Of a stretch of DNA of 64,000 nt, positions 3,890 to 35,352 are shown one piece after another. The number at the start of each line of letters is the position of its first letter. Within the stretch, counting starts at the first letter, position 1. The position numbers were made by a program, and so were the translations under genes. Origin of the DNA: Melioribacteraceae bacterium (GTDB taxonomy: Bacteria > Bacteroidota > Ignavibacteria > Ignavibacteriales > Melioribacteraceae); contig JAIPBD010000018.1 in the NCBI GenBank assembly GCA_021739765.1, positions 1 to 64,000 on the forward strand, written 5' to 3'. Below the pieces are notes generated by a model, which saw only the letters and a program-made list of their open reading frames with translations, did not search any database and was not told the DNA's origin.

Positions 3890-3987
3890 ATTAAATTTGT
3901 TTCTATTTTTAGTTTTTCCGCTTCCAAAAACTAATATTTTATCGAACTGACCACTTCAAATTTTTCACTTAACAGAATATTTTACTT

Positions 3988-4983: not shown

Positions 4984-5119
4984 TCAATTTCCAAGTTAGT
5001 TCCATCGTAGTTTCTTTACAGTTATGAAATGAAGAAAAACTCTTTGGAATAACTTATCATAAAAATGTGAAAGCATAGAATCGATATTAACCTCAATAAA
5101 CTAGATGAAATTTCAATAA

Positions 5120-6109: not shown

Positions 6110-6215
6110 CTCCTTATTTTAATCGTTTGGAATAATTTTTGGTAGAGAATTTACTTAATTTACAATGATTCATGCGCTATTTGAGGACTAAACAAATTTT
6201 ATCTCATAATTATAA

Positions 6216-15315: not shown

Positions 15316-16809
15316 ATGAGACAGCTTACAATTCGAACAGTTTTATTCATCTTCATGCTAACGCTTACAAATTCTAATGCACAATCCTTATCGGATTCAA
15401 TCTTTGTAACAATTTCGGGCGGTACATTTACCATGGGTGAACCGGAATCCACATACTTCGGCCCTCCCGGAACTTACGATGGATATGAACACCAAGTAAC
15501 ATTAAGTTCATATAAAATTATGACCACAGAAGTCACGAATCAACAATACGTGGATTTCCTCAATCTTGCGTATGAAGACGGCTTGCTCGAAGTGAAAGAA
15601 GAAACCGCGATGGGTCCGGATCAAGGCAGCATATTGGTTTATGGAACAAGCTCAGCTCCTTCGGAATACAGCGGTGTTGCGATAGTAAATTTGAGCGGTA
15701 CACGTGTAATGAAAGACCATGTTGAAACGAGTGAAAGTCAAGATGGTAATCCATTCACCGGAATAATAGAACCTGAAAACCCATTGAATATTTCATACAT
15801 CGGCTTCGATGAAACAGCAGCATCCGGCCAAAAGTTTTATGTAAAAGATCCTCGAAATTCATCTGATTTTGATTGGCAAACATTAACCGATTATTACAAT
15901 TACGGCGAAACTCAAGGCTCTTACGATACATCAGTTCTCCTAAACGATTATGATAGTTGGCCTGAATTAGAAGATTATCCGAACAACCTTCCTACACAAG
16001 AAGAAGTTACCACTTGGCCGGCTTCTTTTATCAGATGGTACGGCGCTAAGGCTTTTGCAATGTATTACGGAGCTGATCTTCCAAGTGAAGCACAATGGGA
16101 ATATGCCGCAAGGGGCGGAGACGATTTCTTTTATGCCACTTCTGATGGGAATGTAAATAGTGATGGAAGCTCAGCCAATTGGAATTGGGCAAGCGAACAT
16201 CCCGCGCTGCATCATGTATACAACGTAAGGATTAACCAGCCAAATCCTTACGGTTTGTATAACATGGCCGGAAATGTGTGGGAGTGGGTAGAAGATTGGT
16301 ATTCAGCGGATTTTGTTCAAAATGACGCAACAGATCCGGTTTGCAACGATGCTACTTCGGGTAAAAAAGTTCGTCGTGGTGGCTCTTGGAATTACCATAT
16401 CCAAACTTTAAAGGTCGCCGCGCGCGCAAGTGATGAACAATTTAAAGGAAATGATCACTTTGGATTTAGAGTAGTAAATAACAATGTTGCAACATCAGTT
16501 GGAGATGCAAAATCAAACATTCCTAATGGATTTGAATTATTTGATAATTACCCAAATCCATTCAACCCAACAACAACAATTAAATTTTCAATCCCGGCAT
16601 TAGAGACGAGGCATGTCTCGTCTCTACAAACAGTTTTATCCGTTTACGACCTATTAGGCAACCAAGTCGCCGAACTTGTTAACGAAAGCAAACCGGCTGG
16701 AACATACACAGTTAAATTCGATGCTTCCAATCTTTCGAGCGGAACGTATTTCTACCAACTAAGAGCGGGTAATGTTACACTAACTAAAAAATTAATTTTG
16801 ATGAAATAA
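15316..16809 (+). CDS. FGE-fold (SUMF1-like) protein with intact T9SS sorting domain
   Basis: A 497-residue paralogue of the gene at 13005. Signal peptide ends SNAQ (residue ~23). The FGE-like domain spans ~30-390 (ISGGTFTMGEPES, TTEVTNQQYVDFLN, LPSEAQWEYAARGG, YNMAGNVWEWVEDWY, VRRGGSWNYHIQ, FGFRVV). The active-site Cys pair is missing here too, and the Cys of WEWCEDWY is Val. It lacks the Ig-like spacer of its paralogue and runs straight into the sorting domain (~412-497, NYPNPFNPTT...KKLILMK). That domain carries a short insert, LETRHVSSL, encoded by a palindromic repeat at 16601-16626. It is first in an apparent operon with the fibre-like gene (44-base gap) and the giant. Confidence 0.85.
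   Translation: MRQLTIRTVLFIFMLTLTNSNAQSLSDSIFVTISGGTFTMGEPESTYFGPPGTYDGYEHQVTLSSYKIMTTEVTNQQYVDFLNLAYEDGLLEVKEETAMGPDQGSILVYGTSSAPSEYSGVAIVNLSGTRVMKDHVETSESQDGNPFTGIIEPENPLNISYIGFDETAASGQKFYVKDPRNSSDFDWQTLTDYYNYGETQGSYDTSVLLNDYDSWPELEDYPNNLPTQEEVTTWPASFIRWYGAKAFAMYYGADLPSEAQWEYAARGGDDFFYATSDGNVNSDGSSANWNWASEHPALHHVYNVRINQPNPYGLYNMAGNVWEWVEDWYSADFVQNDATDPVCNDATSGKKVRRGGSWNYHIQTLKVAARASDEQFKGNDHFGFRVVNNNVATSVGDAKSNIPNGFELFDNYPNPFNPTTTIKFSIPALETRHVSSLQTVLSVYDLLGNQVAELVNESKPAGTYTVKFDASNLSSGTYFYQLRAGNVTLTKKLILMK
16601..16626. repeat. Palindromic repeat inserted in frame in a sorting domain
   Basis: TAGAGACGAG (16601-16610) and CTCGTCTCTA (16617-16626) form a perfect 10-base inverted repeat around GCATGT. 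I know this GTAGAGACGAGGCATG-type palindrome as a dispersed bacterial repeat. Here it adds about nine residues between the IPA strand and the VYDLLGNQV strand without breaking the frame. Confidence 0.75.
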
Positions 16810-16853
16810 ATAAACTTGAACTTATAATTAATAAAATAAAAACTGAGGGAAAA

Positions 16854-17969
16854 ATGAAATCGAATATTTTCAAAACAACTGTGTTACTTGCTCTATTATT
16901 CAGCGGATTTATCTCCGCACAAGATGAGTCTTTATCCGTATTAAATCTGCAAGGCGTTGTGCGTGATGACAAAGGCGGTGCTGTTGATGATGATAACTAC
17001 CCTTTTACATTCAGAATTTATAATGTGCTAACTGGTGGAACTGCTTTATGGGAAGAATCACAAGACTTGGATGTAATAAGCGGAGTTTATTCCGCAAATC
17101 TTGGAGAAGTCTCCGCATTTAGCACCGGAAACAGCGGTGCTGGTTTGGGATTTGATGAACCATATTACATCGGCGTCTCTTTTAACAATAAAAATGAAAT
17201 CTCTCCGCGTGTTCGTTTAACCGCTGCTCCTTATGCTTTGGCACTTCAAGGAGCGGGGAACACTTTCCCTTCTTCAGGAACTGTTACTGTAGGAACAAGT
17301 TCTGATCCATCTCAACTTGATGTTGAAGGAGATGTAGATATATCAGGAGTTTTAAACGAAGATTCCGATTTAAATATTGGCAAAGGTATTGTACTCAACC
17401 GGACGGATGAAAATAGTGGTGGCAATAGAATAGACTTTAACACGGGAGGCTCGATGCAGTTTAGACTTGAACAAGCTGATACCGAAGACCTTTATCTATG
17501 GAATAAAACACCCTCACAAATTATGAAGGTTGTAAACAGCACACGCGAAGTGAAATTTTATCAGGACCTTACTGTAGCGGGTGAAGTTGATGCGGGTAGC
17601 ATTACTTCCGGCGGTACTGTTAATGCAAATAATCTCACAATTGATAGCCAAGCTCCATTTGTAATTCGAAGATATGACATGGGCACGAAATCGTCATCAG
17701 ACTCCGATGGCTATTGGACGACCACCAAAGCAACTGGTTATTCGAGCTCAAGTTATTTTGCAGCAGTAATTGGTGTTAATGGTGGGAAAGGAGGTATAGA
17801 TGCCACTAACCAATATCTTTTTGGTGCATTTATGTACGATACAGGAAGTTCTTGGACAGTTTATTCAAGATTTCCCGGAAATACAGCTGGTTCAACTACA
17901 ATAATATGGGTGTTATTTATACAGAAAGAATTAGTTGATGGACCTACATCTGCTTCAAATTGGAATTAA
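16854..17969 (+). CDS. Fibre-like secreted protein, module copy 1
   Basis: A 371-residue protein with a signal peptide (ending SAQ, residue ~22) but no T9SS tail. Residues ~27-138 form a conserved N-terminal domain (LSVLNLQGVVRDDKGGAV, FTFRIYN, GVYSANLGE, PRVRLTAAPYALALQG). Residues ~150-270 are a repetitive stalk-like region with motifs like those near tail-fibre heads (RIDFNTGGSMQFRLEQADTED, then VNANNLTIDS). The last ~100 residues differ strongly from the paralogue at 27201, like a variable tip. The start has GAGGGAAAAATG, identical in the paralogue. It is 48 bases before the giant gene and was duplicated with it, so the two products probably work together. Adhesive or appendage role is an inference. 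Confidence 0.7.
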   Translation: MKSNIFKTTVLLALLFSGFISAQDESLSVLNLQGVVRDDKGGAVDDDNYPFTFRIYNVLTGGTALWEESQDLDVISGVYSANLGEVSAFSTGNSGAGLGFDEPYYIGVSFNNKNEISPRVRLTAAPYALALQGAGNTFPSSGTVTVGTSSDPSQLDVEGDVDISGVLNEDSDLNIGKGIVLNRTDENSGGNRIDFNTGGSMQFRLEQADTEDLYLWNKTPSQIMKVVNSTREVKFYQDLTVAGEVDAGSITSGGTVNANNLTIDSQAPFVIRRYDMGTKSSSDSDGYWTTTKATGYSSSSYFAAVIGVNGGKGGIDATNQYLFGAFMYDTGSSWTVYSRFPGNTAGSTTIIWVLFIQKELVDGPTSASNWN

Positions 17970-18017
17970 TGTGCCGTTGTATAAAATAGTTGCTACTATA
18001 ACAAGGATTAAGTTTAT

Positions 18018-21000
18018 ATGAAAAAGTTATTATTATTATTAATTATAATTAGTGGAAATGTTTTTGCTCAGCAAACTGCCGTTGTCTCTTACGGTAGCAT
18101 CGCACAGGGAGCGACGACAGGCAACCGGATGACAATTATTGCAGGGCAATCAATGGTTGGTGACGGCGAAGCTACGGATTTCTCCTATTCTTCCAGTTTA
18201 GGTTTCTGGGGAATATTAAAACTACCGCCGCTTACCCCTAATGTTTATGCCACCGACGGTGATTATTCAAATAGAACTGAAATCACGTGGGATCTCGATC
18301 CACTGAGTCCACCTGCAAAATATGGTTTCAAATTATACCGTAATACTAGTTTGATTTCTGAAATTAATCCGACTTCGGATGCTTATCAAGATTACAATGT
18401 AATTGCCGGAGATTATTACGAATACAAACTCGTTGGTATAAATGAATATGGCGATGGAAGTGCGGGTTACGATGTAGGATTTGTGAATCCAAATGGTGTA
18501 ATTACAGGACAAGTGCTTACAAAACAAGGTTCACCTTCGGTCGGAACGGAAGTTTATCTTTCCCCGCAACTCGGTAAAAGTTTGAGATTTAAGGGGGACG
18601 GAGAAATTGTAATTCCAGAGGGTGAAAGAGATTCAACTTATTTTAAAGATGTACTTGGAATAAGTGATGAGTTAACTATTGAAATGTGGTTTTATTCGGA
18701 ACTTCTTAATAGTCAGGAAATGATATTCTTTTCCGGTGACATAGAATCCGAAGGAGGTTTATACACTTATATAGATTTAGTAGATGACGGGCGAATTAAA
18801 ATAAGATTACTGCAAGAAAATATTTATACACCCGGCGATTCTTTTAAACCTGAAACTTGGCACCATCTTGCAATTACCGCAAAAGAAAATACAATCTCAA
18901 CGTATATAGATGGAAATCTTATTGATACCTTCGAGCATTCAGTCTCAATTTTGGATGGTGAGTATTGGAAACTTATACATGGTGATATAAGATTTGGGCA
19001 TTATAGCAATGTGAGCCCGAGATTATTTCTCACCGGAATGCTTGATGACATACGAATTTGGAACACAGCAAGAACGGAGGATCAAATTCAAGCGAATATG
19101 AATCGCTCTGTTGATAACGATGATGATGGATTAGTAGCTTACTGGAAATTTGACGAAGGTAACGGCGATTGGGTTTTTGACCAGACCGCAAATAACTTAG
19201 ATGGGAATTTAATAAACACAGAATGGAGTGATGATACTCCGGGAATAAAAACAAGTGCATTTTCCGATGACGACGGTAATTATCTGCTCGGTGGAATTTA
19301 TTACGGTTCGGGAGAAACATTCAGCGTTATCCCCGAGAAAAAAACTCCGCTTGGGTCATCAATTAAGTTTGACGGTACAAATCCAATGCAATTGGATTAT
19401 GATGATTCCTACTTTACCAGAGAAGATTTCACCATTTCATTTTGGTACAATATGCATGTAAGTGGAAAGGGTGAAAATGTTTTCCTACAAAAATATATAG
19501 CAACAACTGGTAAACGTTATGCTTATTTCAATTTGATTAAAAATTCAAGCAATAAATTTTATATAGAAGGATGGTTTGGTTCAAATTCAATAAAGACAAA
19601 TGAAACTGCTGCGCTAAATAAAGACACCTGGTACTATATTGCTGTGGTCTTCGATCAGACAAATCTAGTACTTAAAGTATTTGATCAAGACGGTAATTTG
19701 TATTCTCAACGTACGGAGGCAATTAATGGATTAAGAACGGAACAAACTCCAGCAAACTCATTTCTCGGGACAGATTCACGTTCTTATATTGATGAATTCA
19801 TGTTTTGGAAATCAGCTAGAACTGACGAACAATTACTTGCCGATATGAAAGGAAAAGAAATAAACCTGGACGCTGATGGAACTTATGAAGATGATGCGGA
19901 TTCAAACCTTGTTACATACTTAAAAATGAACGAAGGAAGCGGAAGCTATCTTTTTGATGAATCGCTAAATGGTTTGGGTGGTACTCTTTCCAATTCAATC
20001 TCCTGGAATGAAGATGAGATGCCGCTTGACGATAGTTTTATTCACGAATTTAGCCCAACTTCAAAATATGTAACTCTAAACAACAGTAACACATCCAAAG
20101 ATGATGTAATATTTAATGATATCTCACTCATCAATGTTTCCGGTTATGTTCGGTTTGAAGGAACAAGCTGTTACCAAGACAGCGTCGAAATTTTAGTTGA
20201 TGGTGAATCAGCTGATTCGCCGATTTACACCGACGAAAACGGAAAGTTTATTGCTGAATTGGAACCTGGTTCAAATGCTGTTCTAAGCCCTTATTACAGT
20301 GATCATACATTTAGTTTAGCGGGTTATGAAGTAGTTAATCTCAATTCACCAATCAGCGGAATATTAATTGAGAATAATACAAAGCGTGAATTGGATGTAA
20401 ATGTTTTTGGCGGTGAGTGCCGTTATCCGATTCGCCCCGAAACCGGGGATATTACCGTAACTTTAACAAGTCTTAACGGTTGTTTTGAACAAGAGTTAAC
20501 AACTCCGACTTCCGGAGACTTCACTTACACTTTTTCAGATGTTCCCCCGCAAGATTACACCGTAACAATAGATCATCCGGTTGCGGCAATTCGGGATGCA
20601 CTTCCAGGTCAACCAATCTCTTTAATAGAAGGCGACGCTGAGATGGATTTTATGTACCAAGCTGATTTGCAAGTTGCGGTTACAAATGGCTTCACCGAAA
20701 ACGATTGCGGCGATATTGTACTTGCGAAAGAAACAAGCTACACAATTTCAATTCAAGCTTTTGAGTCTTACTATGATCTCGGAATCCGAAGCGATTGTGC
20801 TGTTGATACAGGTTCATATAAAATTTCGGATGAGTTATCCGGTATTGGCGATACTACTGTTGTGTTTGGAGAAAGCCGGGAATCATTCAATTCAAGTACG
20901 AATAAAACAAGCTATTCATTTATTACAGGTCAACCGAATATTATTTCTCCATATAAAAAACAGATTCAGATTGTCGCTACGGACAAATACGGCAGACAAG

Positions 21001-24000
21001 CAATAACTTCAGAAGAAGCGATTGTTCTCGGGAGCAGATTAAGGGAAAGTACATTCGTATCACACACACCCGAAGAAACTCCCGTTATGATTCTGCGCGA
21101 TCCGCCCGGAGATCAGAGCTATGGTTTTATCGAAAATGGAACCTCCTTTTCTAATACAGTGACTGTGGGCATTGATTCTGCAGAGGGCTATAGTTCCTTT
21201 CTGCATTTATCAAAAGGTCCTAAAATCACGATTTCCACCGGATTGGGTGTATCAAAAGATAATGAATGGGATTTGGTTTTGGACGAGACATTTAATTGGG
21301 GATCGGAAGATAATACTTCAGATGTTACTTCTGATACTTATGAATTCTCGACGAGCAGAACAATAACCACGGCAGAAGATCCTATCGGCGGTGATGTTAT
21401 TCTTGGCGGCGCGATCAATCTGGTTTATGGAATTACCGATAATCTTGAATATAACGAAGAAAATTGTGAAATAAGCGTAGGACAAGAGTTAAGAGTTGAA
21501 CCAGTTGGTTTTAATACTTCATACATTTATTCTGTACACCATATTAAAGAAATTCTAATCCCGCAATTACAATTATTGATTGATGCCGCAGGAACGGATT
21601 CAACTTCAGTGGATGCTGAAACAGCTGATTCGCTGAGTTTATCAATCGATCGGTGGAATGCGATTTTAGATTTTAACGACAGTTTAAAATTAGCCGCAAC
21701 TTTTTCAGAAAACATTTCTATTGACGCATATTCATCTTTGGAATATTATGAAAATGTTGACAGCTCTTCTACTTTTTCAGTTACTTTTGAAGACAAAGGA
21801 TTCTCGGATTATATGTTAGATGTCGGGCTTATGGTTGACGATGTCGGCATCAATGGGGGACTCATATCATTCAGCCAGGACGTAACTGTTAACGAAACTT
21901 CGACTACAAACGGCACAACTTCAACTTATGGATATTTTATCGGCGATGATGACCCGGGTGATTTCTTTTCGGTTGATATTAAAAAAGATCCGGTTTACGG
22001 TACTTTTGTATTCGATACAAAAAATGGACAAAGCAAATGTCCTTGGGAAGAAAATACACTGCCAAGGGAAGGCGTTCAAGTTAATCCTTCTGCGTTTAAC
22101 GCCGTTAATGTGCTTCCGAACGAAGCGGCTGTTTTTAATTTAGAATTGGGCAATACAAGCCAATCTGATGAAACTTGGGGTTATTCTATTAAACTGCTGA
22201 ACGAAACCAATCCGGACGGGGCAATTGTAAAAATAAACGGATTCGCATTGAGCAGCGGTGCTATCGAATACGTTATGGATCCGGGCGTTGCTTACAATGC
22301 AACCGTAACAATAGAAAAAGGACCGCACGCAACAGAATATGAAGATATAACGCTTCAATTCTACTCTGCTTGCGAAGCTGATATAGCAGATCAATTCGGA
22401 CAGAATCCTAAGATTCATCAAAACGTTACTTTTTCGGTATCATTTATAGATGCTTGCAGTGAAATAAATATTTCCAGTCTTGAAGATAATTGGCTTGTAA
22501 CAAGCGGACAAGCCGAAGATACTCTTTGGGTAACCGTTGATAGTTATTCGCTTTGGAATGATGATGTAACCGAACTAAAACTTCAATACAGAAAACGAGT
22601 TTTGGGTTCATCTTCAATAGCAGCTCCGATTATTCAAGGTTCTGCTAACAACGGCGATCAGCCAAAAATTGATCTTTGGATTGATGTTCCCGAAAGTGTT
22701 GTTGATAGTTTTTCAATCCGAAATCTTATTAGCGAAAATTCTCCAGGTATATTTGATACAACCAGTAGAACAGAAAACTATTCAATAGTGCCCTGGGAAA
22801 TAAAAAACTTACCGGATGGCGTTTATGAATTAAGGGCAGTTGTTGAATGCGGTATTGGCGATGCTGCGGGAGTCTCAACCCCGGTTCTTGGAGAAATTGA
22901 TAGAACTGGCCCGGCTTTGGTCGGAACACCTTCTCCAATTGATGGTGTGCTGGAATTGGACGATCTAATCTCCTTCGTGTTTGATGAAAATATCGATTGC
23001 GATAAAATGGATCCTGTGGAAGATGTAAAATTAATAAATCTCGATACTGGTGCGGATGTCGGTTTCGAATACAATTGCACCGATAATACAATCGTATTTA
23101 CAATAGACGATTTGAACAAGTATGTCGAGAATGCCACGCTAAAAGCAACGGTCTCCAATATTCATGATGGATACGGAAACGGAATTTCCGACAAAGAATA
23201 TTCATGGGAATTTTATGTGAACCGTAATCCTGTCAGTTGGGATGGCGGTGATATCGATATTGCCAAATTGGACGATGAAGAAAAAGCCGTAACCCGCAAA
23301 ATAAGTAATACCGGCGGTAAAGCTTATTCATACAAAATTTCGGATGTCGCCGATTGGCTGACCGTTTCACCGATGGAAGGAACTGTTCAGGCAAAAAGTG
23401 CTGTTACATTAAACTTTGAAGTTGGTGCAGAATTAAGTCATGGTATTTACACCGACACTTTATATGCAGAAACAAGCGAAGGAACCGAAGCAATAATAGT
23501 TGCAATGGAAGTTTTGTGTAATCCTCCCACTTGGGAAATTCAACCGCAAAAATTCGAACACTCTATGGTGATTGTAGCAAATCTTAAAACTGCAGATGTA
23601 ATCTCCGAAGATTTGTGCGATGTTGTTTACGCATTTGTTGGCGATGAATTACGCGGAGTTGCTAACTTACAATACTTTGCCGGAATCGATTCCAACTATT
23701 CAGGCGTAGAACCTTATCAAGTATTTATGACTGTTTACAGCGATACAACCGAAGGTGAAGTTATTGTACTTCGTGTTTGGGATGCTTCCGAAAAACAAAT
23801 CGTAACTCAACTTGGAAATTATTATGATTTCTTATCCAACGATGTTATCGGCGACCCAACGGCTCCGGAGCTGGTTGAAACTTCGAGTCTGGCGCTGCAA
23901 GAAACATTTTTTGTGGGCGGCTGGAATTGGTTTTCACCAAATCTGACAAATACGGATATGTCGCTTAACTATACGCTTTCAGCTTTAAATCCGGGAATTG

Positions 24001-25133: not shown

Positions 25134-25146
25134 ATAACCAATCATC

Positions 25147-25173
25147 AGCTCCGGTGATATCACCGGAGCTTTT
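25147..25173 (+). terminator. Intrinsic terminator between the two module units
   Basis: AGCTCCGGTGAT (25147-25158) and its exact complement ATCACCGGAGCT (25159-25170) form a perfect palindrome followed by TTTT. It separates the giant gene from the gene starting at 25190, so the second unit needs its own promoter or readthrough. Confidence 0.85.
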
Positions 25174-25189
25174 ATTATTAACTAAAAAA

Positions 25190-27169
25190 ATGAATAAAAT
25201 TAATCGAATTTTTGCTTCCGTTTTTATATTAAGTACGAGTTTGCTTTTTGCTCAAACTCCTACCTGGACGGTTAATCCGGGTGATTATTCCTCCCAAGCA
25301 AATCTGACGGCATTCGTAAAACTAAACGGTGTACGTATTGGAAATGCGAATGATCTGCTTGCCGCCTTAAAGGATGAAGTAATCCGGGGAGTGGTTTCAC
25401 CCATATTGATCAATGGCGAATATGTGTTTTTCCTGAGCATTTATTCAAACTCTATAAATGAAACTATCGAATTAAAATATTATGACTCTGAAGCGAATGT
25501 TACCAGAAAAACCATCGTGGATTTTTCATTTACACCGGGCAAAATTTCCGGTAGCGCGGCATCGCCTACCGAATTAAATGTTTATGAAAATTATGATTGG
25601 ACTCCGATACTTTCCGGAATTCCCGAACAAACGATAGAAAATGGGGATTCTTTTTCTGATTTCGATTTGCTGGATTATACTACAACTAATGATGATGATG
25701 ATATAAATTTCCAAGTCTCGAAGACCACTAATCTAAATGTTTCCATTATAAATAGCGTTGTCAATGTCGTACCATTTAGCTCAAATTGGGAAGGGACAGA
25801 ACAACTAATCTTCACAGTTGTGGATTTTACAACGGCAAAACTTTCTTCTTCAGATACTGTAGATTTTACAATCATTCCACAAGATCTTCCTCCTATTCTA
25901 AATTCAGTTCCCGAACAGGTTGTATTCCGCGACCAACAATTTCCGGCTTTTAGTTTAACAGATTATTTGGACAACCAGGATGATGATGACATTGTCTGGA
26001 ATCACCGATTAATCGTTGAAACAAAAACGGAAGTTTCACCGGATTGGTCTTTTAATAACTCCGGCTTTACGGATCAGATGAATCTGGTAGTAAAAATAAT
26101 CGCGAGAAATTCGGAGATAAATTCCGATTCACACCTTCTGGCGGCCTTTGTTGGCGATGAGATAAGAGGAATTGCAACCCCGACGGAAGTTTCCGGGAAT
26201 CAACTATTCTATTTAACACTTCACTCCAACACAATTAATGAAACGATTTCCTTCCAATTCTACGATGATACTATGAACGAAACATTACCGGTAATGGAAA
26301 CGGTAAAGTTCGTCGCAAACAGTATCAAAGGATCAGCAGCTAATCCATTTATTTTAAGAGCAGGACGATTGATTGTTGATATTGATTCGAACTCAGAAGT
26401 ATCGATTGCAAGACTTGATACTGCTTGGTATGGTACTGAAGATATTCAATTTTGGGTTGAAGAAAACACTGTTAAAAAATTATCCGACACCACATCCACA
26501 TTTTTGCAAGTATTAGAAAATGTTTTGCCCGTAGAATTAAATTCTTTTACCGGAAGAGTAATTAATAACAAAGTTGAATTGAATTGGGAAACAATAACTG
26601 AATTAAACAACTATGGTTTTTGGGTAGAACGAAAACTGGAGACGGCAGACTGGGCAAAACTTGGATTTATTGAAGGTGTTGGAAACAGCAATTCTCCGAA
26701 ACTCTATAAATTTATAGATTCATCTCCTATCGCCGGTAAGGCTTATTATCGATTGAAACAAATAGATTTCGATGGGAAATTTGAATATTCAAGTATAATC
26801 GAAGTTAATGTTGCCAGTCCTACTAAATTTGAATTATTGCAAAATTACCCGAATCCGTTCAACCCGACAACAACAATAAAATTCACAATTCCTGCTTCTG
26901 TCATGCTAAACTCGTTTCAGCATCTTGAGAATAAGACCCCGAAACCTGCCTCATCGGCAGACAAGCAAGATCGGGGTGACAATTTGCTTACAACCTTAAA
27001 TGTTTACAATGCTCTTGGAGAAAAAGTCGCTGAACTTGTTAACGAACAAAAACCCGCCGGAACATATGAAGTAACATTCAATGCCGAAAATCTTTCAAGC
27101 GGAACGTATTTCTACCAATTAAGAGCCGGTGAATTAGTTCAAACCAAAAAATTGATTTTAATAAAATAA
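25190..27169 (+). CDS. T9SS protein with two 'AFVGDE-RG' modules
   Basis: The ATG at 25190 is preferred because it begins a clean signal peptide (MNKINRIFASVFILS...LFAQ). An upstream in-frame GTG at 25154 lies inside the terminator hairpin. The protein is 659 residues. Module 1 at ~24-135 (WTVNPGDYSSQANL...KDEVIRGVVSP...GSAASP) and module 2 at ~283-389 (WSFNNSGFTDQMNL...AFVGDEIRGIATP...GSAANP) repeat the fold found twice in each giant. A cadherin-like segment (VPEQVVFRDQQFPAFSLTDYLD) lies between. Then come an Ig-like spacer (LPVELNSF...NYGFWVER) and the T9SS tail. The tail is interrupted by a ~30-residue insert translated from a REP-like element at 26899-26981. It is followed by the second fibre-like gene after 31 bases. 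Confidence 0.8.
   Translation: MNKINRIFASVFILSTSLLFAQTPTWTVNPGDYSSQANLTAFVKLNGVRIGNANDLLAALKDEVIRGVVSPILINGEYVFFLSIYSNSINETIELKYYDSEANVTRKTIVDFSFTPGKISGSAASPTELNVYENYDWTPILSGIPEQTIENGDSFSDFDLLDYTTTNDDDDINFQVSKTTNLNVSIINSVVNVVPFSSNWEGTEQLIFTVVDFTTAKLSSSDTVDFTIIPQDLPPILNSVPEQVVFRDQQFPAFSLTDYLDNQDDDDIVWNHRLIVETKTEVSPDWSFNNSGFTDQMNLVVKIIARNSEINSDSHLLAAFVGDEIRGIATPTEVSGNQLFYLTLHSNTINETISFQFYDDTMNETLPVMETVKFVANSIKGSAANPFILRAGRLIVDIDSNSEVSIARLDTAWYGTEDIQFWVEENTVKKLSDTTSTFLQVLENVLPVELNSFTGRVINNKVELNWETITELNNYGFWVERKLETADWAKLGFIEGVGNSNSPKLYKFIDSSPIAGKAYYRLKQIDFDGKFEYSSIIEVNVASPTKFELLQNYPNPFNPTTTIKFTIPASVMLNSFQHLENKTPKPASSADKQDRGDNLLTTLNVYNALGEKVAELVNEQKPAGTYEVTFNAENLSSGTYFYQLRAGELVQTKKLILIK
26899..26981. 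repeat. REP-like element translated in frame inside a sorting domain
   Basis: The element opens with TGTCATGCTAAACTCGTTTC and closes with GATCGGGGTGACA, so the ends are TGTCA and TGACA. Inside it a smaller hairpin occurs (CTGCC...GGCAG, near 26947-26960). It adds about 30 residues (beginning VMLNSFQHLE) between IPA and TLNVYNALGEKV. Its left half matches the intergenic copy at 14873. Confidence 0.75.
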
Positions 27170-27200
27170 ACTTTAACAAAAACTAACCTTTGAGGGAAAA

Positions 27201-28241
27201 ATGAAACGGAATCTAATATCTCTAATTATAATCGGCATACTTTTTTCAATGTCACTTGAAACATATGCTCAAGACGATCTTTCGGTCCTAAATATACAAG
27301 GTGTTGTAAGAGACGACAAAGGCGGAGCTGTTGAGGATGGTGACTACCAATTTACATTCCGTATTTATGACAGTGAGGATGGAACCGGTGATTTATGGTC
27401 TGAAACACAAACACTAACTGTTTCCAGTGGTGTCTATTCTGCTAACCTCGGCGAAACCACAACATTTAGCAGTGCAGGATTAGGATTTGACAAACCATAC
27501 TACGTCGGGGTACAATTTGAATCCGAAGCGGAAGCATCTCCAAGAATTAGATTAACGGCGGCTCCTTATGCATTGGCTTTGCAAGGCGGAGATAATGTTT
27601 TCCCTTCAAGCGGGAATGTTGGAGTAAATACGAGTGCGCCCGAATCACAATTCCATGTTGTGGGCAATACGAAAATTGAGGAAGGTGATGTTTCTGTTGA
27701 TGGCAACATTAGTTTGGACAGGGCTGACAATACCACCGGGCAAACTTTAAAATTCAACACAGGCTCAACTACTGGATACAGTCTTGGACAAGAGGATAAT
27801 GATCATTTTTACTTTTGGAAAGAATCAACTAAGGTTATGAGTTTTCATAATACAACAGACGAAGTTTCAGTTAAGCACGATTTCAATGTTGACGGTGATG
27901 CTCAAGTTGATGGAACAATAAATGCTAATAATCTTACTATTGACAGTTACGCTCCATTCGTTTATCAAGTGATTGACTTAGGGAGCGGATCGAATGTTTC
28001 TGTTAATACCGGTGTGAATATAAATGATTATTACTGCACTATAATCGGTGTAATTCGAGGTACAGGAGATATTGATGAAAATGGATCAACAAATTTATGG
28101 CGGGCTTATGCCGCAACTTCGAGCGATATATGGCATATTTACATGAGAGGTGCTGCGAATTCTTCTGTAAATCAAGTTAAAGTTTTGTGGATACAAAGCG
28201 ATTTAGTAAGTACTAATACGTCACCATTAACTCCGAATTAA
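27201..28241 (+). CDS. Fibre-like secreted protein, module copy 2
   Basis: A 346-residue paralogue of the protein at 16854. Signal peptide ends TYAQ (residue ~23). It shares LSVLNIQGVVRDDKGGAV, FTFRIYD, GVYSANLGE, PRIRLTAAPYALALQGG, the stalk segment (LKFNTGSTTGYSLGQEDNDHFYFW) and NANNLTIDS-APFV. Past that point the last ~95 residues share only scattered similarity with copy 1. No sorting tail is present. The sequence GAGGGAAAAATG is conserved at the start. A 49-base gap leads to the second giant. The pattern resembles base-plus-tip fibre proteins of phages and adhesins. No trimerisation or chaperone domain is visible. Confidence 0.7.
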   Translation: MKRNLISLIIIGILFSMSLETYAQDDLSVLNIQGVVRDDKGGAVEDGDYQFTFRIYDSEDGTGDLWSETQTLTVSSGVYSANLGETTTFSSAGLGFDKPYYVGVQFESEAEASPRIRLTAAPYALALQGGDNVFPSSGNVGVNTSAPESQFHVVGNTKIEEGDVSVDGNISLDRADNTTGQTLKFNTGSTTGYSLGQEDNDHFYFWKESTKVMSFHNTTDEVSVKHDFNVDGDAQVDGTINANNLTIDSYAPFVYQVIDLGSGSNVSVNTGVNINDYYCTIIGVIRGTGDIDENGSTNLWRAYAATSSDIWHIYMRGAANSSVNQVKVLWIQSDLVSTNTSPLTPN

Positions 28242-28290
28242 ACTCAAATCATTTTTCATGATAAATTAAATAAATTAAATTGGGTTTAAT

Positions 28291-31200
28291 ATGAAAACAT
28301 TATCTAAGATATTAATACTGCTATTGTACACATTTCTAGTCACGACAACAGTATTTGCTCAGCAATCAGCGATTCTTACCTACGGCAGCAGCGCCAAGAG
28401 TGCGTCAACTAAATCAAAAATTACTTCAATAATAGGTCAACCACTGGTTGGTGAATCGGTTGATCCCGTAAAATTTAATTATTCCTTGAGTCTCGGTTTT
28501 TGGGGAATTTTAAGACTTCCTCCACTTTCTCCCTATGTTTTTGCAAGTGACGGTGATTTTACCAATCGTATTGAAATCAACTGGAGCCTTGATCCGCTTA
28601 GCCCTCCCGCAAAAGATGGGTACAAAGTCTACCGTGATAACAGTTTTATTGCCGAACTCTCCCCCACTACAGAATCGTACCAAGATTATAATGTTATCGC
28701 CGGAAGTATTTATGAATACGAACTTCTCGGAGTAAATGAATACGGCGATGGCTCACTGGGTTATGATGTCGGGTTTATGAATCCCAATGGGGTTATTACC
28801 GGAAATGTTACCACAACTCAAGGAACAGCCTCCACGGAAACCGAAGTTTATCTTGATCCGAGTCCGGGAAAAAGTTTAAAACTGTTTGGTAATGAAAATA
28901 TTAGTGTAAGTCTTTATGAATTATATGAAACAAAAGTTGATTCGGTTCTTGAGAGTTTTGGGCTCTCGAAGGAAATGACATTGGAAATTTGGTTTTACGC
29001 AAACTCCGACGGAACAATATTTTTCTCAGGTGATATCGATTCAATCAACACGGATATAAAACTCACTACTGAAAATAAAATTGGTTTGGAATTCCCTACT
29101 GCGAGTTTGGAAACGTCCGAAATTGAATTTGAAAAATGGACTCACCTCGCAATTACCGTAAACAGTTCTAATATTCAAGTTTATCTGAATGGCGAACTTG
29201 ATGTTTCAATGGATAATCCCGATGAAAATTTGGCATCACATATTCTTTCCGGGGATATTTCTTTTGGCGCGGAAACATGGCGGGGTTTGGATTCCGCTAA
29301 AAATTTCTTTACAGGTTATCTCGATGATATGCGAATTTGGACTACAACCAGATCCCGAGAAGAAATTATCAAAAATATGCAAAGAACCGCCGATGTTGAT
29401 GAAGATGGTTTACTGGCATACTGGAAATTTGATGAAGGGAACGGGACTATTACTTTTGACCAAACCGATCATAACTGGGATGGAATAATTAACGGGGCAA
29501 GTTATTCAAGTGAAACTCCCGGGATCAAAACGAGTGCTTTTACTGATGAGGAAGGAAATTTTTTCATTGGCGGAATCTATTATAATTCCGGGCAAACTTT
29601 CAAAGTTATCCCTCAAAAAGAGACTGAGTTGGGAACTTCAGTTAAGTTTGACGGAGATAGTTATGTGGCGATTGAGGCTGATTCCCTTCTTTTAGATGAA
29701 GAAGAATTCACAATTTCGATGTGGTATAAAATGAATACCGGCGGAAGTGGTGAAGAATTATTTATCCAAGCTGATCCTGCAAAAACTTACTTCCACATAT
29801 TTAAACATGGAACCGATCAAATAACGGCTCGCGGTCAATTTGGGAACGATTGGATTGCGACAGAAAGAACCGATAGCAAAGTAATTGAGGCTGACCAATG
29901 GTATTACATCTCAGCGGTCTATGATAAAATCAATCTGACGATGTTAATTTTTAATCAAGATGGTTCTATTTACGACAGTGTCTCAGCAGCTACTTCTAAT
30001 TCAAGAGTTTTTACTGATAGCGTTTCATCTGTTATTGGTTTGAATTTACAAGGAACAATAGACGAGTTTATGTATTGGAGTTCGGCGCGCACAAGCTCTC
30101 AACTCAAAGAGGATTTAACAGGCGAAAATATCACATTTGACGATGACGGCAATTACGAAGATCCCGAAAATGAAGAACTGATTGCTTACTTTAAATTTAA
30201 CGAAGGATTTGACCTTCTTGCAACCGACTATTCACTCAACTCTATTAGTGCGTCTCTATCTGTTGATGATATTTGGAGTGACGATATTCCACTCGATGAA
30301 GTTTTCAACCATGTTTACTCACCAGGATTCAGATATGTAACTCTGAACGAAAGTAATACCTCAAAAGATGATGTTACTTTCACGGATGTTTCGCTGCTAA
30401 CAGTTTCAGGCTATGTTCGTTTCGCCGATACTCGTTGTTATGCGGATAGTATTGAAATATTAGTTGATGGCGCTTCTGCTTCTCCACAAATTTTTACTGA
30501 TGAAAATGGAAAATTTGTTGTTGAACTTGAGCCTGGTTCAAGTGCTCTACTCACCCCTAGTTATGGCGATTTTAATTTTGAGTTGGACAGTTATGAAGTC
30601 CAAAACTTAAGTCAACCAATTGCGGGAATTGTTTTTGATATAACAACTACACGAGAACTAAAAGGCTTTGTCGCTGGAGGAAGCTGCAAGTTGGGTATTG
30701 CCGGAACAAACCAAACCGTAACTCTCCGAATTGAAAGTCAAGATGGATGTTACTCAACCTCAACAACAGTAAACGAAAATGGAACATATCATTTATATGA
30801 TTTACCACCGTTAGATTATTATGCTTTTGTGGAGCACGATTCAACAAATATTCAAGAATACTTCGATAATCTCGGAGGAATAGCGTTTTCGCTTCGCAAT
30901 CAATCTGATTCGTTGGATTTTCTTTATTACTCTGATCTTCAAGTTGAACTCTCATTCCCTAACTATCTTTTCGAATGTGATTACATTTTCGATCAGGGCG
31001 ATTCGGTTTTAGTTCGCGCGAAAATATTTGAAGATTATCCCGGCGGAAACTGTGATACGGAATTTGGTCAACTGACAATTCGTAATAAAATTGGAGATGC
31101 AGAAGATGCTATTTTAGAATTTACAGATGGGCAAGCTGATTTTTATATTCAAATCGGTCAACCGAATACACTCTCAGGCGGTGATTACCCTTACAAGAAA

Positions 31201-34200
31201 CTGCTTCAGGTTACTGCCGAAGATTCGATCGGAAGAAAAACTACTGATGAAGTTTGGGCATACGTAACCGGAATAAAACAAGCGGAGAATACATTTACAA
31301 CCGTCACCCCTGAAATCCCCACAATTGTTTTACGGGATCCTCCGGGTGATCAAAGCTATGCATATTTGGAAGAGGGATATTCAACAACTTCCGGTGTGCA
31401 GATAGTCGCAAATACTGCTTATGGCACCAGTGATCAAGTTTACCTCGGAACTGAGAAAGGTATTCTTATCGGATTAGGTTACGCTGAAAAATTAGAATTC
31501 TTTGCAGTTGCCGGTCCCAGTGTTAGTTATGAAGGTGGAGACTCAAAAGAGACTCTCGAAATAAGAACCACGGTAACATCAGACGCTTATTCGACAAATA
31601 ATCTTGATGGATTATTAGGCAACGACGGTGATATTTTCATCGGGGCGGCGTTTGTTCTGCAATTCGGAACAGGTTTAAATCTTACCGTTAATAATGAAAA
31701 TGGAAATTGTACAGTTGATCTGGATACGGTCACGACTGTTGTACCCGATACAATTTCTACTACCTTCATGTATTCTGAAAGCCATTTGAAAAATTCTGTT
31801 ATTCCAAACCTCGAATTTTTACTGGGACAAACTCCAGCCGATTCGATTGAGGACTTGGCTTATTATGCAACTCAAATTGGCTTATGGAATGATATCCTGG
31901 AAATGAATGATTCACTTAAGGATGCAGCAGAATTCGAAAAAAACATCTCATTCGATGCGGGAACGGTTTACGATTACACATATACCGCTCAAAATGATAC
32001 CGCTGATAATGATGGGAAGAATTATTTTACCGAAGATGGATTAGTTCTTCAAATAGGTTGGAAGAACACCATTTCGGGTTATATAGAAGGTTATGTTTAT
32101 GGAAGCTATACTTACGAAAAAGTAAACATTGATGAATCTTCAGGTTCGAGAACAATTGGTTATCATTTTGAGGATGATGATGCGGGTGATTTCTTCAGTG
32201 TAAATATTCTTAATGATGAAGTTTACAACACCCCGGTTTTTGAAACCGTTTCCGGACAAAGTTCATGTCCTTGGGAGCCTGGAACAAGGCCGAGAAATGG
32301 GGTTAGCCTTTCAATGGGAAGCTATGAAGCAACCGGAGTTCCTCCCGATGAAGCAGCAACTTTTTCTTTGTACCTGGGCAATACTTCCCAATCAGACGAA
32401 ACTCAAACTTACGATTTGTTTGTAAATCAAGAGTCTAATCAAAATGGCGCAATCGTAAAAGTAAATGGAATTGCAGTCGAGGACCATCTTTCATTTACAA
32501 TTCCTTCCGGCAAACAGTTCGAAAGTATTTTAACTGTTGAAAAAGGTCCCGGTTCATATTTTTCAGACACACTCCAAATTACATTTCAATCCACATGTGA
32601 TGCAGGTACGGAAATTCCTGATGATGTCGAACTTTCAACAGTATTTACTGAATCCGCGGAATTCGTAGTCAATTGGGCCGAGCCTTGCAGCAATGTTGAA
32701 ATATTTACTCCCGATGATGAATGGTTGCTTACTTCGGCGGATAATGATTCGATGCAGATTGTTCTCACAGGTTACGAAAAGGACAACGAAGATCTGGATT
32801 ATATTTCCCTCCAATTCAGGAAGAAAATTATTATTCCCGGTTCGAGTGTAAACTTTGATTCACTTGGAAATATTATGCTCAAGTCAAAATCTTCGGTGGA
32901 TGATAAATTAATTCCAAAAGCAAATGATTGGGTTAATATAGTTTCAATTTCTAGAGATTCCTTGACCAATGACGATCATGAATATATCTGGGATATTTCC
33001 GGATTAATACCTGAAGGTCAGGATGGAACATACGAACTTCGGGCAATTACTTTCTGTGTAGATCCTAACGGATATTCGGGTGTCTCGGAAATCTTAAACG
33101 GATTGGTGGATCGAACAGGCCCGGCTCTTGTTGGTGAACCACGCCCGGTAGATAAAATTCTTCATGTTGATGATGAAGTCGCTTTCTATTTCGACGAGGA
33201 TATTGATTGCAGTTTGATCGATCCTATCGAAGATATTTCATTTGTTTATTCTGATACGGATCAAGACTTAAACTTCGAATATACTTGTGTTGATAACAAG
33301 ATTGTTTTCACACCAACAGATAACAACTATTTTTTAGAACATGAATACCTAACCGCAACTATTAAAAACATCTATGATATTTATGGCAACGGGGATTCCG
33401 AGACTGTTTACGAATGGGAATTTTTCGTAAATCGAAACCCAATGCATTGGGAAGGTCTTAGAATTGAGGAGTCAAAACTTGATGATGAATCAATTGAGAT
33501 AATTAGAAGATTGAAAAATTCCGGCGGTGAAAATTATACATTTGAGATAATTGATATTCCCGAGTGGTTAGGTGTTTCACCAACCGAAGGAACAATTGGT
33601 GCGGATAAATTGGAAACAATTACTTTTACCGTCTCAAATGATGTGCCTCATGGCTATTATGCTGATACTGTCTACGCGAAAACCACCGATGGAAACGAAC
33701 CAATGGTTATCATGTTGGATAATCTTTGTAACCCACCAACTTGGGATGTAAATGAGGGCGATTATCAATTCTCGATGACAATCATCGGGAACATTCAAGT
33801 TGATAGCGCTATTTCTGAAGACTTGTGTGATATTGTTTACGCTTTTGTCGGCGATGAAGTTAGAGGCGTTGCTGAGTTGCAATATTTCGGCGAAATTGAA
33901 TCCTCTGCTTCACTTGAAGATGTTTCACCATATCAATTCTACATGACGGTTTACAGCAACAGTGAAATTTTGAATTCTGAAATGTTGGTTTTACGTGTTT
34001 GGGATGCTTCGGAAAGAGTCGTAACTACTCAATCATCAGATTATTATTACTTTGATCCCGACGCGTTGGTTGGAAGCACACGTTCACCCGATACAATCAA
34101 AACTTCGAATTTGGCACTTCAAGAAACAGCTTTGGATAAAGGCTGGAATTGGATTTCAACCAACTTAGTTAATGATGATATGTCTCTTGATTATGTTCTT

Positions 34201-35352
34201 TCGTTTTTAACTACAACGCAAGATTACATCAAAGGACACAATTATTTTGCGAGTAATGAAACCGGCAGCTGGGTTGGTAGTCTTACCGAATTATCCGCAA
34301 ATAACTCTTACATGATCCAAATGTCTATCGAGGATACGATTCAATATTTCGGTGAAGCGGTAAATCTTGATTCAGCGTTTATCCCTCTGGATTCCAACTG
34401 GAATTGGATCGGATATCATCCTACATCAGCTCAGGATCTCAACTCGGCGTTAATCTCCCTAAATCCGGCTGAAGGCGACTTGATCAAAAATCAATCTTAC
34501 TTCTCAACTTACATTGAGGACGTCGGCTGGGTCGGAAGTCTCAAAGAAATGGTTCCAGGTGACGGATATAAGCTGCAAATCTCACAAAAAGATACTTTGA
34601 TTTATCCGGAGCCGGTTTTGAGCAAATCACTTTCTAAAATTGCCGGAACCGCCAACAACAAAGGCGAAACCGATTTGGAAACTTCCGCTTCTGTTGATTG
34701 GCAGGTGAATCCGAGTCATTTCGAATTTAACATGAATTTGATCGGACATTTTGATCAATCCCAGTTTGCAAATCTGAACGCGAATGATTTGTTGGGAGCG
34801 TTTGTCGGGGATGAATGCCGCGGGCTGATTGCCCCGATTTATATTGAATCGCTTGACGAATATAGAATATTCCTGACAGTCTTCAGCAACAACGCGGTTG
34901 GAGATACAGTTACATTCAAACTGTACGATTCAAAAAATGACGCGACTTTGGATATAAAAAATTCGGTCACATTCTCTTCCAATAAAATTATCGGAAGTAC
35001 GAACGACCCGTTTCTGTTCACAATTTTCGTTACCGGAATTCACAGCACCGGTTTAATTCCTGAGGTGTTTAGTCTTAGTCAGAATTATCCGAATCCGTTC
35101 AATCCTGAAACGATTATTGAATTTGGATTACCCGAAGCGGCGAATGTACAAATTCAAGTCTTTAACATACTCGGTGAATTGGTGAACACTGTGACATCAA
35201 GAGAATTTGATGCCGGGTATTATATGGTTCGATGGTTGGGCGAAGACAATTACGGATCGAAACTGTCATCGGGAACATATATTTATCGGATTGTAGCTCG
35301 TTACAATAAAGATACTTTCTCAGAAACGAGGAAGATGATACTGCTGAAATAA
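28291..35352 (+). CDS. Giant LamG-containing T9SS surface protein, module copy 2
   Basis: A 2353-residue full-length paralogue of the giant at 18018 with the same domain order. Signal peptide (ends VFAQ, ~24), Fn3-like segment, LamG 1 ~192-390 (LDDMRIWTTTRSREEI), LamG 2 ~448-640 (IDEFMYWSSARTSSQL), RDPPGDQSYAY (~1016), SSCPWEPGTRPRNG (~1327), Big_5-like Ig domain ~1607-1717. Then BACON-like segment, AFVGDEVRG module (~1816-1935), WNW repeats (~1950, ~2036), AFVGDECRG module (~2136-2245), T9SS tail ~2256-2353 (NYPNPFNPET). Divergence is spread over the whole length, so the duplication is not recent. Paralogous surface receptors with different specificity is the likeliest reading. Confidence 0.82.
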   Translation: MKTLSKILILLLYTFLVTTTVFAQQSAILTYGSSAKSASTKSKITSIIGQPLVGESVDPVKFNYSLSLGFWGILRLPPLSPYVFASDGDFTNRIEINWSLDPLSPPAKDGYKVYRDNSFIAELSPTTESYQDYNVIAGSIYEYELLGVNEYGDGSLGYDVGFMNPNGVITGNVTTTQGTASTETEVYLDPSPGKSLKLFGNENISVSLYELYETKVDSVLESFGLSKEMTLEIWFYANSDGTIFFSGDIDSINTDIKLTTENKIGLEFPTASLETSEIEFEKWTHLAITVNSSNIQVYLNGELDVSMDNPDENLASHILSGDISFGAETWRGLDSAKNFFTGYLDDMRIWTTTRSREEIIKNMQRTADVDEDGLLAYWKFDEGNGTITFDQTDHNWDGIINGASYSSETPGIKTSAFTDEEGNFFIGGIYYNSGQTFKVIPQKETELGTSVKFDGDSYVAIEADSLLLDEEEFTISMWYKMNTGGSGEELFIQADPAKTYFHIFKHGTDQITARGQFGNDWIATERTDSKVIEADQWYYISAVYDKINLTMLIFNQDGSIYDSVSAATSNSRVFTDSVSSVIGLNLQGTIDEFMYWSSARTSSQLKEDLTGENITFDDDGNYEDPENEELIAYFKFNEGFDLLATDYSLNSISASLSVDDIWSDDIPLDEVFNHVYSPGFRYVTLNESNTSKDDVTFTDVSLLTVSGYVRFADTRCYADSIEILVDGASASPQIFTDENGKFVVELEPGSSALLTPSYGDFNFELDSYEVQNLSQPIAGIVFDITTTRELKGFVAGGSCKLGIAGTNQTVTLRIESQDGCYSTSTTVNENGTYHLYDLPPLDYYAFVEHDSTNIQEYFDNLGGIAFSLRNQSDSLDFLYYSDLQVELSFPNYLFECDYIFDQGDSVLVRAKIFEDYPGGNCDTEFGQLTIRNKIGDAEDAILEFTDGQADFYIQIGQPNTLSGGDYPYKKLLQVTAEDSIGRKTTDEVWAYVTGIKQAENTFTTVTPEIPTIVLRDPPGDQSYAYLEEGYSTTSGVQIVANTAYGTSDQVYLGTEKGILIGLGYAEKLEFFAVAGPSVSYEGGDSKETLEIRTTVTSDAYSTNNLDGLLGNDGDIFIGAAFVLQFGTGLNLTVNNENGNCTVDLDTVTTVVPDTISTTFMYSESHLKNSVIPNLEFLLGQTPADSIEDLAYYATQIGLWNDILEMNDSLKDAAEFEKNISFDAGTVYDYTYTAQNDTADNDGKNYFTEDGLVLQIGWKNTISGYIEGYVYGSYTYEKVNIDESSGSRTIGYHFEDDDAGDFFSVNILNDEVYNTPVFETVSGQSSCPWEPGTRPRNGVSLSMGSYEATGVPPDEAATFSLYLGNTSQSDETQTYDLFVNQESNQNGAIVKVNGIAVEDHLSFTIPSGKQFESILTVEKGPGSYFSDTLQITFQSTCDAGTEIPDDVELSTVFTESAEFVVNWAEPCSNVEIFTPDDEWLLTSADNDSMQIVLTGYEKDNEDLDYISLQFRKKIIIPGSSVNFDSLGNIMLKSKSSVDDKLIPKANDWVNIVSISRDSLTNDDHEYIWDISGLIPEGQDGTYELRAITFCVDPNGYSGVSEILNGLVDRTGPALVGEPRPVDKILHVDDEVAFYFDEDIDCSLIDPIEDISFVYSDTDQDLNFEYTCVDNKIVFTPTDNNYFLEHEYLTATIKNIYDIYGNGDSETVYEWEFFVNRNPMHWEGLRIEESKLDDESIEIIRRLKNSGGENYTFEIIDIPEWLGVSPTEGTIGADKLETITFTVSNDVPHGYYADTVYAKTTDGNEPMVIMLDNLCNPPTWDVNEGDYQFSMTIIGNIQVDSAISEDLCDIVYAFVGDEVRGVAELQYFGEIESSASLEDVSPYQFYMTVYSNSEILNSEMLVLRVWDASERVVTTQSSDYYYFDPDALVGSTRSPDTIKTSNLALQETALDKGWNWISTNLVNDDMSLDYVLSFLTTTQDYIKGHNYFASNETGSWVGSLTELSANNSYMIQMSIEDTIQYFGEAVNLDSAFIPLDSNWNWIGYHPTSAQDLNSALISLNPAEGDLIKNQSYFSTYIEDVGWVGSLKEMVPGDGYKLQISQKDTLIYPEPVLSKSLSKIAGTANNKGETDLETSASVDWQVNPSHFEFNMNLIGHFDQSQFANLNANDLLGAFVGDECRGLIAPIYIESLDEYRIFLTVFSNNAVGDTVTFKLYDSKNDATLDIKNSVTFSSNKIIGSTNDPFLFTIFVTGIHSTGLIPEVFSLSQNYPNPFNPETIIEFGLPEAANVQIQVFNILGELVNTVTSREFDAGYYMVRWLGEDNYGSKLSSGTYIYRIVARYNKDTFSETRKMILLK

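Follow-up and report, generated by a model that had tools for sequence, protein, structure and literature searches.

The 64,000-nucleotide stretch analyzed here (the window) belongs to contig JAIPBD010000018.1 of a Melioribacteraceae bacterium and harbors two tandem gene modules. Each contains a gene for a small fiber-like protein (the fiber) and, directly downstream, a gene for a protein of about 2,360 residues (the giant) that ends in the type A sorting tail of the type IX secretion system (T9SS). GQ-GFW designates the roughly 60 residues at the N terminus of the giants that carry the signature TxGQPxxG...GFW, and MAT_N the N-terminal domain (N-domain) of mosaic adhesive trimer (MAT) fibers. 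The genes and features of the two pairs are as follows.

16854..17969, +, fiber 1 (371 aa): begins like a signal peptide, has a MAT_N-like base up to about residue 150, then a stalk and a C-terminal tip; T9SS tail absent
18018..25133, +, giant 1 (2371 aa): type A cargo of the T9SS
18072..18248, +, GQ-GFW domain of giant 1 (about residues 19-77), common to the mini-carriers described below; an FnIII-like stretch is next
18654..19091, +, first LamG stretch of giant 1 (residues 213-358); Pfam gives two stretches
21057..22487, +, "DPPGD" core of giant 1 (about residues 1014-1490): conserved; predicted to fold into long beta hairpins plus a helical hairpin
24450..24794, +, AFVGDE-type domain of giant 1 (residues 2145-2259), also present in the gene at 25190
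24867..25097, +, T9SS type A tail of giant 1 (residues 2284-2360)
27201..28241, +, fiber 2 (346 aa): N-domain predicted at residues 31-120 with a predicted confidence (pLDDT) of 78-93
28291..35352, +, giant 2 (2353 aa): type A cargo of the T9SS
28363..28542, +, GQ-GFW domain of giant 2 (about residues 25-84)

The open reading frames (ORFs) at 16854/18018 and 27201/28291 are present as the original prediction described them, as pairs with the same gene order and gaps of 48 and 49 bases between fiber and giant. The prediction had also claimed near-identical ribosome sites. This holds for the fiber genes, upstream of which 12 bases (GAGGGAAAAATG) are identical, and not for the giants, whose upstream sequences differ. 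The two fibers (P0002 and P0005) are 47% identical to each other and the two giants 43%. Identity between the modules is concentrated at the N termini: the fiber bases are 56 to 68% identical and the remainder mostly 28 to 43%, while the first 200 residues of the giants are 58 to 62% identical and later 100-residue blocks 23 to 60%. As predicted, the fibers look exported, with a signal-peptide-like start by eye, and no T9SS sorting tail was matched in P0002 or P0005. The giants carry LamG in two stretches each and type A tails that score 31.3 and 26.3 bits against an NCBIfam cut-off of 23. SprA is encoded in the same genome (844 bits), and the giants thus qualify as T9SS type A cargo.

The genome (4.54 Mb, 37 contigs) contains two further fiber-giant pairs, on contigs C31 (gap of 12 bases) and C6 (gap of 29 bases), so that all four fibers directly precede all four giants. 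Because the same pair recurs at C31 and C6, the pairing goes beyond chance. A GQ-GFW profile matched exactly four proteins of this genome above 55 bits, the four giants, which are themselves rows of the profile, and the next match scored 20 bits.

Association of fiber genes with the GQ-GFW domain

The DPPGD core of the giants is rare, being found in 2 of 80 genomes of the family (own genome included) and in 12 of 395 genomes of the phylum. One scan of genome contigs gave 46 core-bearing loci (L071 to L116), many of whose members have neither fiber nor GQ-GFW; records with the core are from Bacteroidota, Balneolota, Rhodothermota, Chlorobiota, Calditrichota, KSB1, Cloacimonadota and Fidelibacterota. 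Fiber and GQ-GFW models made from the four own pairs only were applied to 33 of the 46 loci, those in which the giant starts inside the stretch with at least 200 bases upstream. Both were matched in 10 loci, GQ-GFW only in 2, the fiber only in 1 and neither in 20 (Fisher, p = 7e-6). Removal of L104 (near L076) and of the fragments L080 and L116 leaves 9, 2, 1 and 18. In the two loci with the domain and no matched fiber, L071 and L073, a fiber-like or coiled ORF is cut by the contig end, and L071 matches phage tail fibers. The single giant with a fiber and no domain has GQ-GFW at E = 2e-3. The giants form two groups: those with a GQ-GFW start have a fiber directly upstream, and in those without GQ-GFW none was seen. 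One of the loci with a giant pair, L079, belongs to Emticicia aquatica.

Fiber homologs, recognized by their MAT_N-like base, are far more common than giants, occurring in 10 of 77 family genomes and 70 of 296 phylum genomes. The original prediction was to fall if homologs of the small protein occurred mostly without a neighboring giant and, as worded, this is what was found. The fiber thus does not require the giant, and the giant is rejected as its obligatory partner.

A GQ-GFW model made from 16 giants located the domain in a small gene directly 3' of the fiber in 14 fetched stretches with no giant there. The products of such genes, here called mini-carriers, consist of a signal peptide, the GQ-GFW domain and a T9SS tail in about 180 aa (175 to 195 aa in 23 of 35). 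Across the 296 phylum genomes, 70 have the fiber and 55 GQ-GFW; both are present in 49, the fiber only in 21, the domain only in 6 and neither in 220 (Fisher, 2e-32). A wider GQ-GFW profile (A4) has 39 rows, including rows chosen for adjoining fibers. For the 82 GQ-GFW hits outside A4, the fiber matches listed place a fiber start on the same strand within 15 kb in 54, within 6 kb in 51 and within 3 kb in 44, and a fiber on the opposite strand in none. With A4, a GQ-GFW gene lies within two genes in 39 of 54 fiber arrays, and in 33 of 41 once arrays that are cut or lie at an edge are set aside; this count excludes the own genome, L181 and the stretches that had been selected for their giants. 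The first-listed GQ-GFW neighbor in the 39 arrays is a mini-carrier downstream in 24, a mini-carrier upstream in 11, a giant in 3 and another gene in 1. Among genes of less than 380 aa with a T9SS tail in the fetched stretches, 32 with GQ-GFW are beside a fiber and 3 elsewhere, and those without the domain number 0 beside a fiber and 1 elsewhere.

Fiber and carrier are also inherited jointly. In a tree of 81 fiber bases (146 columns, with many unresolved forks), all 23 giant-linked fibers are in one set of 25 rows (support 98/88), which includes none of the 41 mini-linked fibers. The two giant-less rows of this set are a fiber cut by the contig end and a fiber followed by an N stretch. The set covers Bacteroidota, Balneolota and Fidelibacterota, and in genome G318, which has both kinds, the giant-linked fibers are inside the set and the mini-linked one is outside. 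Carrier type therefore follows fiber lineage. In the core tree, one set with an SH-aLRT of 100 (quick method) unites all 22 giants with GQ-GFW; its 29 rows also include 4 giants without GQ-GFW and 3 that are uncertain. Distances between fiber bases correlate with those between giant N termini (r = 0.60, 19 pairs). The near copies L104 and L181 were omitted from the distance, tip, tail, fiber-tree and AFVGDE-neighbor counts. The four pairs of the genome, the test with own-genome models and the supported set of giant-linked fibers bear out the earlier claim that the two products belong together.

We therefore consider it probable that a T9SS-exported carrier holds the tail-less fiber via GQ-GFW, and that the genes make up a two-component module for fiber display, often of three genes. 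Several results weigh against this reading. Among the phylum genomes, 21 of 70 with a fiber have no GQ-GFW match and 6 of 55 with GQ-GFW have no fiber. No fiber is nearby for 28 of the 82 held-out GQ-GFW hits, among the fiber matches listed, and no GQ-GFW gene lies within two genes in 8 of the 41 uncut arrays. The array count is partly circular, as 24 of the 39 positive arrays are rows of A4, and the agreement in distances is confounded by species kinship. The mini-carrier, moreover, may precede or follow the fiber. Finally, 13 of 25 T9SS-tail genes of at least 380 aa without GQ-GFW in the fetched stretches adjoin fibers, so that a T9SS neighbor per se is not specific.

The last point is also what would be expected if fiber and carrier were separate surface proteins that make no contact and share one operon for attachment, with GQ-GFW serving another role. 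Surface-protein genes cluster in this region anyway, and T9SS-tailed neighbors are found on both sides. We regard this alternative as improbable: one short domain beside fibers is common to otherwise unlike carriers, and giants with the same core and no GQ-GFW had no fiber upstream in 20 of 21 testable cases.

The mini-carrier gene is 5' of the fiber gene in L177, L178, L212, L213, L215, L220, L221 and L223.

Composition of the fiber and the giant

No Pfam family was matched by P0002 or P0005 at E 0.01. Both match the NCBIfam MAT N-domain (NF053851) weakly, P0002 at 22.1 bits (1e-4) and P0005 at 27.0 bits (3e-6) against a cut-off of 60 bits, above which the own genome has no match. This MAT_N match is found at E <= 0.01 in 11 of 14 fiber relatives (best, 5.6e-7), and scores across the fibers examined range from 13 to 27 bits. 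As these are below the curated cut-off, we term the fiber MAT-like and do not file it as a MAT member. In the structure model of fiber 2, the N-domain is predicted to be compact and beta-rich, with strands at residues 30 to 118, and would thus be located directly behind the signal peptide, as in MAT proteins; outside this domain the model is poor (mean pLDDT, 61.3). Among 71 complete fibers, the N-terminal parts are related in 2,404 of 2,485 pairs and the C-terminal parts (last 160 residues or fewer) in 117 of 2,485, and the tips form 28 clusters. The fibers are thus mosaic, with a constant N-terminal and an exchanged C-terminal part. Among the tips of the own genome, resemblance is confined to the two from the window.

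Some relatives have tips of phage type. Pfam identifies an S74 chaperone in L075, L084, L092 and L106 and a phage tail collar in L076, and phage tail families are matched by L071, L072, L076 and L082. The fiber profile matches the phage long tail fiber structure 6f45 at E = 1.4e-5. With regard to the capping-loop motif of the MAT stalk, residues 136 to 175 of P0005 can be aligned with Bd3182 (8ojn) at a whole-sequence E value of 0.0011, the best stretch reaching an i-E value of only 0.35. A prophage origin of the pair was considered and rejected, as fiber 1 has no match among 50,697 phage records and neither window fiber matches a PHROG at E 0.01.

Three kinds of loci show further variation in fiber genes. 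Very large fibers with a T9SS tail, of 3,092 and 3,762 aa, are present in L190 (3809-13084) and L199 (2274-13559), with a GQ-GFW gene still downstream of each. Three consecutive fiber genes are followed by one GQ-GFW giant in L106 (2720-7901) and L207 (1051-4909), possibly a tip repertoire for each carrier; the frame of the L106 giant breaks off without a tail. In L075 (7031-8570), the fiber base and the S74 tip are in two overlapping frames 5' of the giant, which may reflect a frameshift, a sequencing error or a programmed shift.

The T9SS tail is absent in 69 of the 71 fibers and present in 2. This would also agree with a carrier that is an escort and not an anchor, whose GQ-GFW binds the fiber in the periplasm so that the T9SS exports both, after which the fiber is released or held otherwise and the giant domains act alone. 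A minimal carrier of domain plus tail and a variable gene order are compatible with such a role. The large glycan-type middle of the giants and the separate clade of giant-linked fibers, however, are more in keeping with a permanent structural partner than with an escort that is used again and again, and we consider the escort unlikely.

The giants contain, apart from GQ-GFW, an FnIII-like stretch, two LamG stretches, matches to carboxypeptidase-regulatory-like and BACON domains, the DPPGD core, AFVGDE-type domains and the type A tail, which is present in 18 of 20 giants with GQ-GFW and core. The core has no Pfam family and no relative in the PDB by sequence. Its model (44 sequences; mean pLDDT, 78.1; pTM, 0.60) predicts Ig-like flanks and a middle of six strands of 20 to 34 residues plus a helical hairpin. 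Across the family, hydrophobicity alternates along the four longest strands (mean differences of -2.1, +2.0, -2.3 and +1.6), with paired strands in opposite phase, and S, T, G and N are abundant in these long strands. Long hairpins of this kind recall membrane-inserting proteins, a resemblance that we take as a lead. On this basis the giant could be an effector with the fiber as its targeting part, the core being contact-triggered and membrane-active in interbacterial antagonism or predation, and MAT fibers do serve predation in Bdellovibrio (PMC10769870). The ends of the predicted hairpins, however, have a pLDDT of only 39 to 60; structure alignment mainly hits the Ig-like flanks and gives the middle no firm match; the core is also found without fiber or GQ-GFW; and the neighboring genes encode glycoside hydrolases. 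We consider an effector role highly improbable. The giants are probably carriers with a very long insert and not a system of their own.

Third gene and genomic setting

Between the two pairs are the following features.

25147..25170, +, terminator-like hairpin 3' of giant 1: 10 pairs, 7 of them G-C, and a T-rich tail
25190..27169, +, probable third gene of module 1 (659 aa, counted from the ATG at 25190): AFVGDE-type domain in two copies, Ig-like stretches, T9SS tail of type A

The ORF of the third gene is listed from 25154, and its likely start, by eye, is the ATG at 25190. The original prediction regarded it as a T9SS "head" gene of module 2, with the FGE-like gene at 15316 as that of module 1. 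The AFVGDE-type domain has nine hits in the genome, all in giants, in the 25190 gene or in a gene 3 bases after the C6 giant. An AFVGDE-domain gene is found within 1.6 kb downstream of 11 of 20 GQ-GFW giants, versus 3 of 25 other giants, and relatives of the 25190 gene adjoin giants directly downstream in other loci. Because its relatives follow giants and the domain is confined to giants and the next gene, the 25190 gene is more likely the third gene of module 1, and its assignment as head of module 2 is rejected. The module is thus often fiber, giant and AFVGDE protein. Terminator-like sites number 15 in the whole window versus 10.5 expected, the hairpin at 25147 to 25170 being the strongest, and a transcript shared by giant 1 and the 25190 gene is accordingly not required.

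The FGE-like gene is one of a tandem pair (13005 and 15316; 73% identical over 396 aa), and the gene upstream of the C6 fiber is amylase-like and not FGE-like; the C31 pair is at a contig start. We therefore reject the FGE-like gene as a fixed part of the module, and a head gene before each pair is not a constant feature. The closest NCBIfam family of the FGE-fold genes (13005-14573 and 15316-16809) is GldK, far under its cut-off. In the first of them a TAA inside the T9SS tail ends the frame, with tail homology continuing beyond.

To the right of the modules is a polysaccharide-degradation locus (35571-63426) with genes for chondroitinase B/PL6-like, GH5, CBM6, GH3, GlcNAc-2-epimerase-like and GH2 proteins, followed by a TonB-dependent receptor, GH3 and GH5. 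Mannan as its substrate is a guess. GH99-like and amylase genes lie downstream of the C31 pair, and upstream of the C6 pair are amylase-like and GHL10 genes. At the other end of the window, a cluster for glycan synthesis (2894-8316) adjoins T9SS cargo genes. It comprises three tandem FUT8-like genes, of which the third falls slightly short of the Pfam cut-off, and genes for a GDP-mannose dehydratase and a glycosyltransferase.

Proposed fiber display and its relation to known systems

The carrier-bound display that we favor would proceed as follows. In the fiber, possibly a trimer, the signal peptide would be followed by a base that is conserved and beta-rich, then by a stalk and an exchangeable tip, and the fiber would have no outer membrane sorting signal of its own. 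The N-terminal GQ-GFW of the carrier would receive the fiber base, and the C-terminal type A tail would provide T9SS export and anchoring, so that the fiber would be displayed, and perhaps also exported, in complex with the carrier. The commonest carrier would be GQ-GFW and tail only. The giants would place about 2,000 residues (FnIII, LamG, DPPGD core, Ig-like, AFVGDE) between the two, which may raise the fiber off the cell and give it possibly glycan-binding neighbors. The tip would select the target, and attachment to polysaccharide or to other cells is the likely use. The capture or attachment apparatus of the original prediction, a fiber on an anchored giant, hence survives in part, since we favor a fiber borne by a T9SS-exported protein; the giant itself is not needed, as mini-carriers may serve.

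More tentatively, it is possible, though we would not yet count on it, that this is a general T9SS fiber-display system, in which the GQ-GFW carrier loads tail-less phage-type fibers in the periplasm, exports them and holds them. Tip exchange would then alter the target with the carrier unchanged, and the T9SS could offer a route to the surface for proteins without a sorting tail.

A search by title or abstract start, with subscription papers and preprints outside its scope, gave no report of a fiber/carrier pairing in T9SS bacteria. The earlier statement that no named system has this composition needs qualification, since kin exist and the giant pair is an expanded form of a widespread fiber-plus-carrier pair. 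YadA-type trimeric autotransporter adhesins have a C-terminal membrane anchor domain; no Pfam family of this kind was matched at E 0.01 in P0002 or P0005. Phage tail fibers resemble the present ones in the S74 and tail-collar tips of relatives and in the match of the fiber profile to 6f45, whereas fiber 1 matches no phage record, neither window fiber matches a PHROG at E 0.01, and their base and T9SS partner are cellular.

In the T9SS, type A tails direct cargo via the SprA translocon and the PorV shuttle onto A-LPS (PMC12618676). Giants and mini-carriers end in such a tail (TIGR04183/Por_Secre_tail). The fiber, in contrast, is tail-less, and the passages of that paper that were covered do not describe ordinary type A cargo as carrying a second, tail-less protein. 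The same paper treats SprB/SprF-type adhesins, which are of type B and have a cognate PorP/SprF protein; there, as in the present pairs, an adhesin at the surface goes with a partner to which it is genetically linked. The giants differ in that their tail is of type A (CHU_C being below its cut-off) and in that the partner is a fiber and not an outer membrane shuttle protein.

The nearest relatives are the MAT fibers of Bdellovibrio bacteriovorus, which are named for their mosaic pattern of a conserved N-domain and exchanged tips, are known from one predatory bacterium and have an N-domain whose surface partner awaits identification (PMC10769870). The fibers described here share the conserved beta-rich N-domain after a signal peptide, the exchanged tips and, in some relatives, the S74 chaperone tips. 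Unlike MAT fibers, they are below the NF053851 cut-off and are paired with a T9SS-tailed carrier, and their MAT-like base is found beside one short domain in many genomes. GQ-GFW is thus a candidate socket for MAT-like bases, which would be the first, and it is small enough for a direct binding assay.

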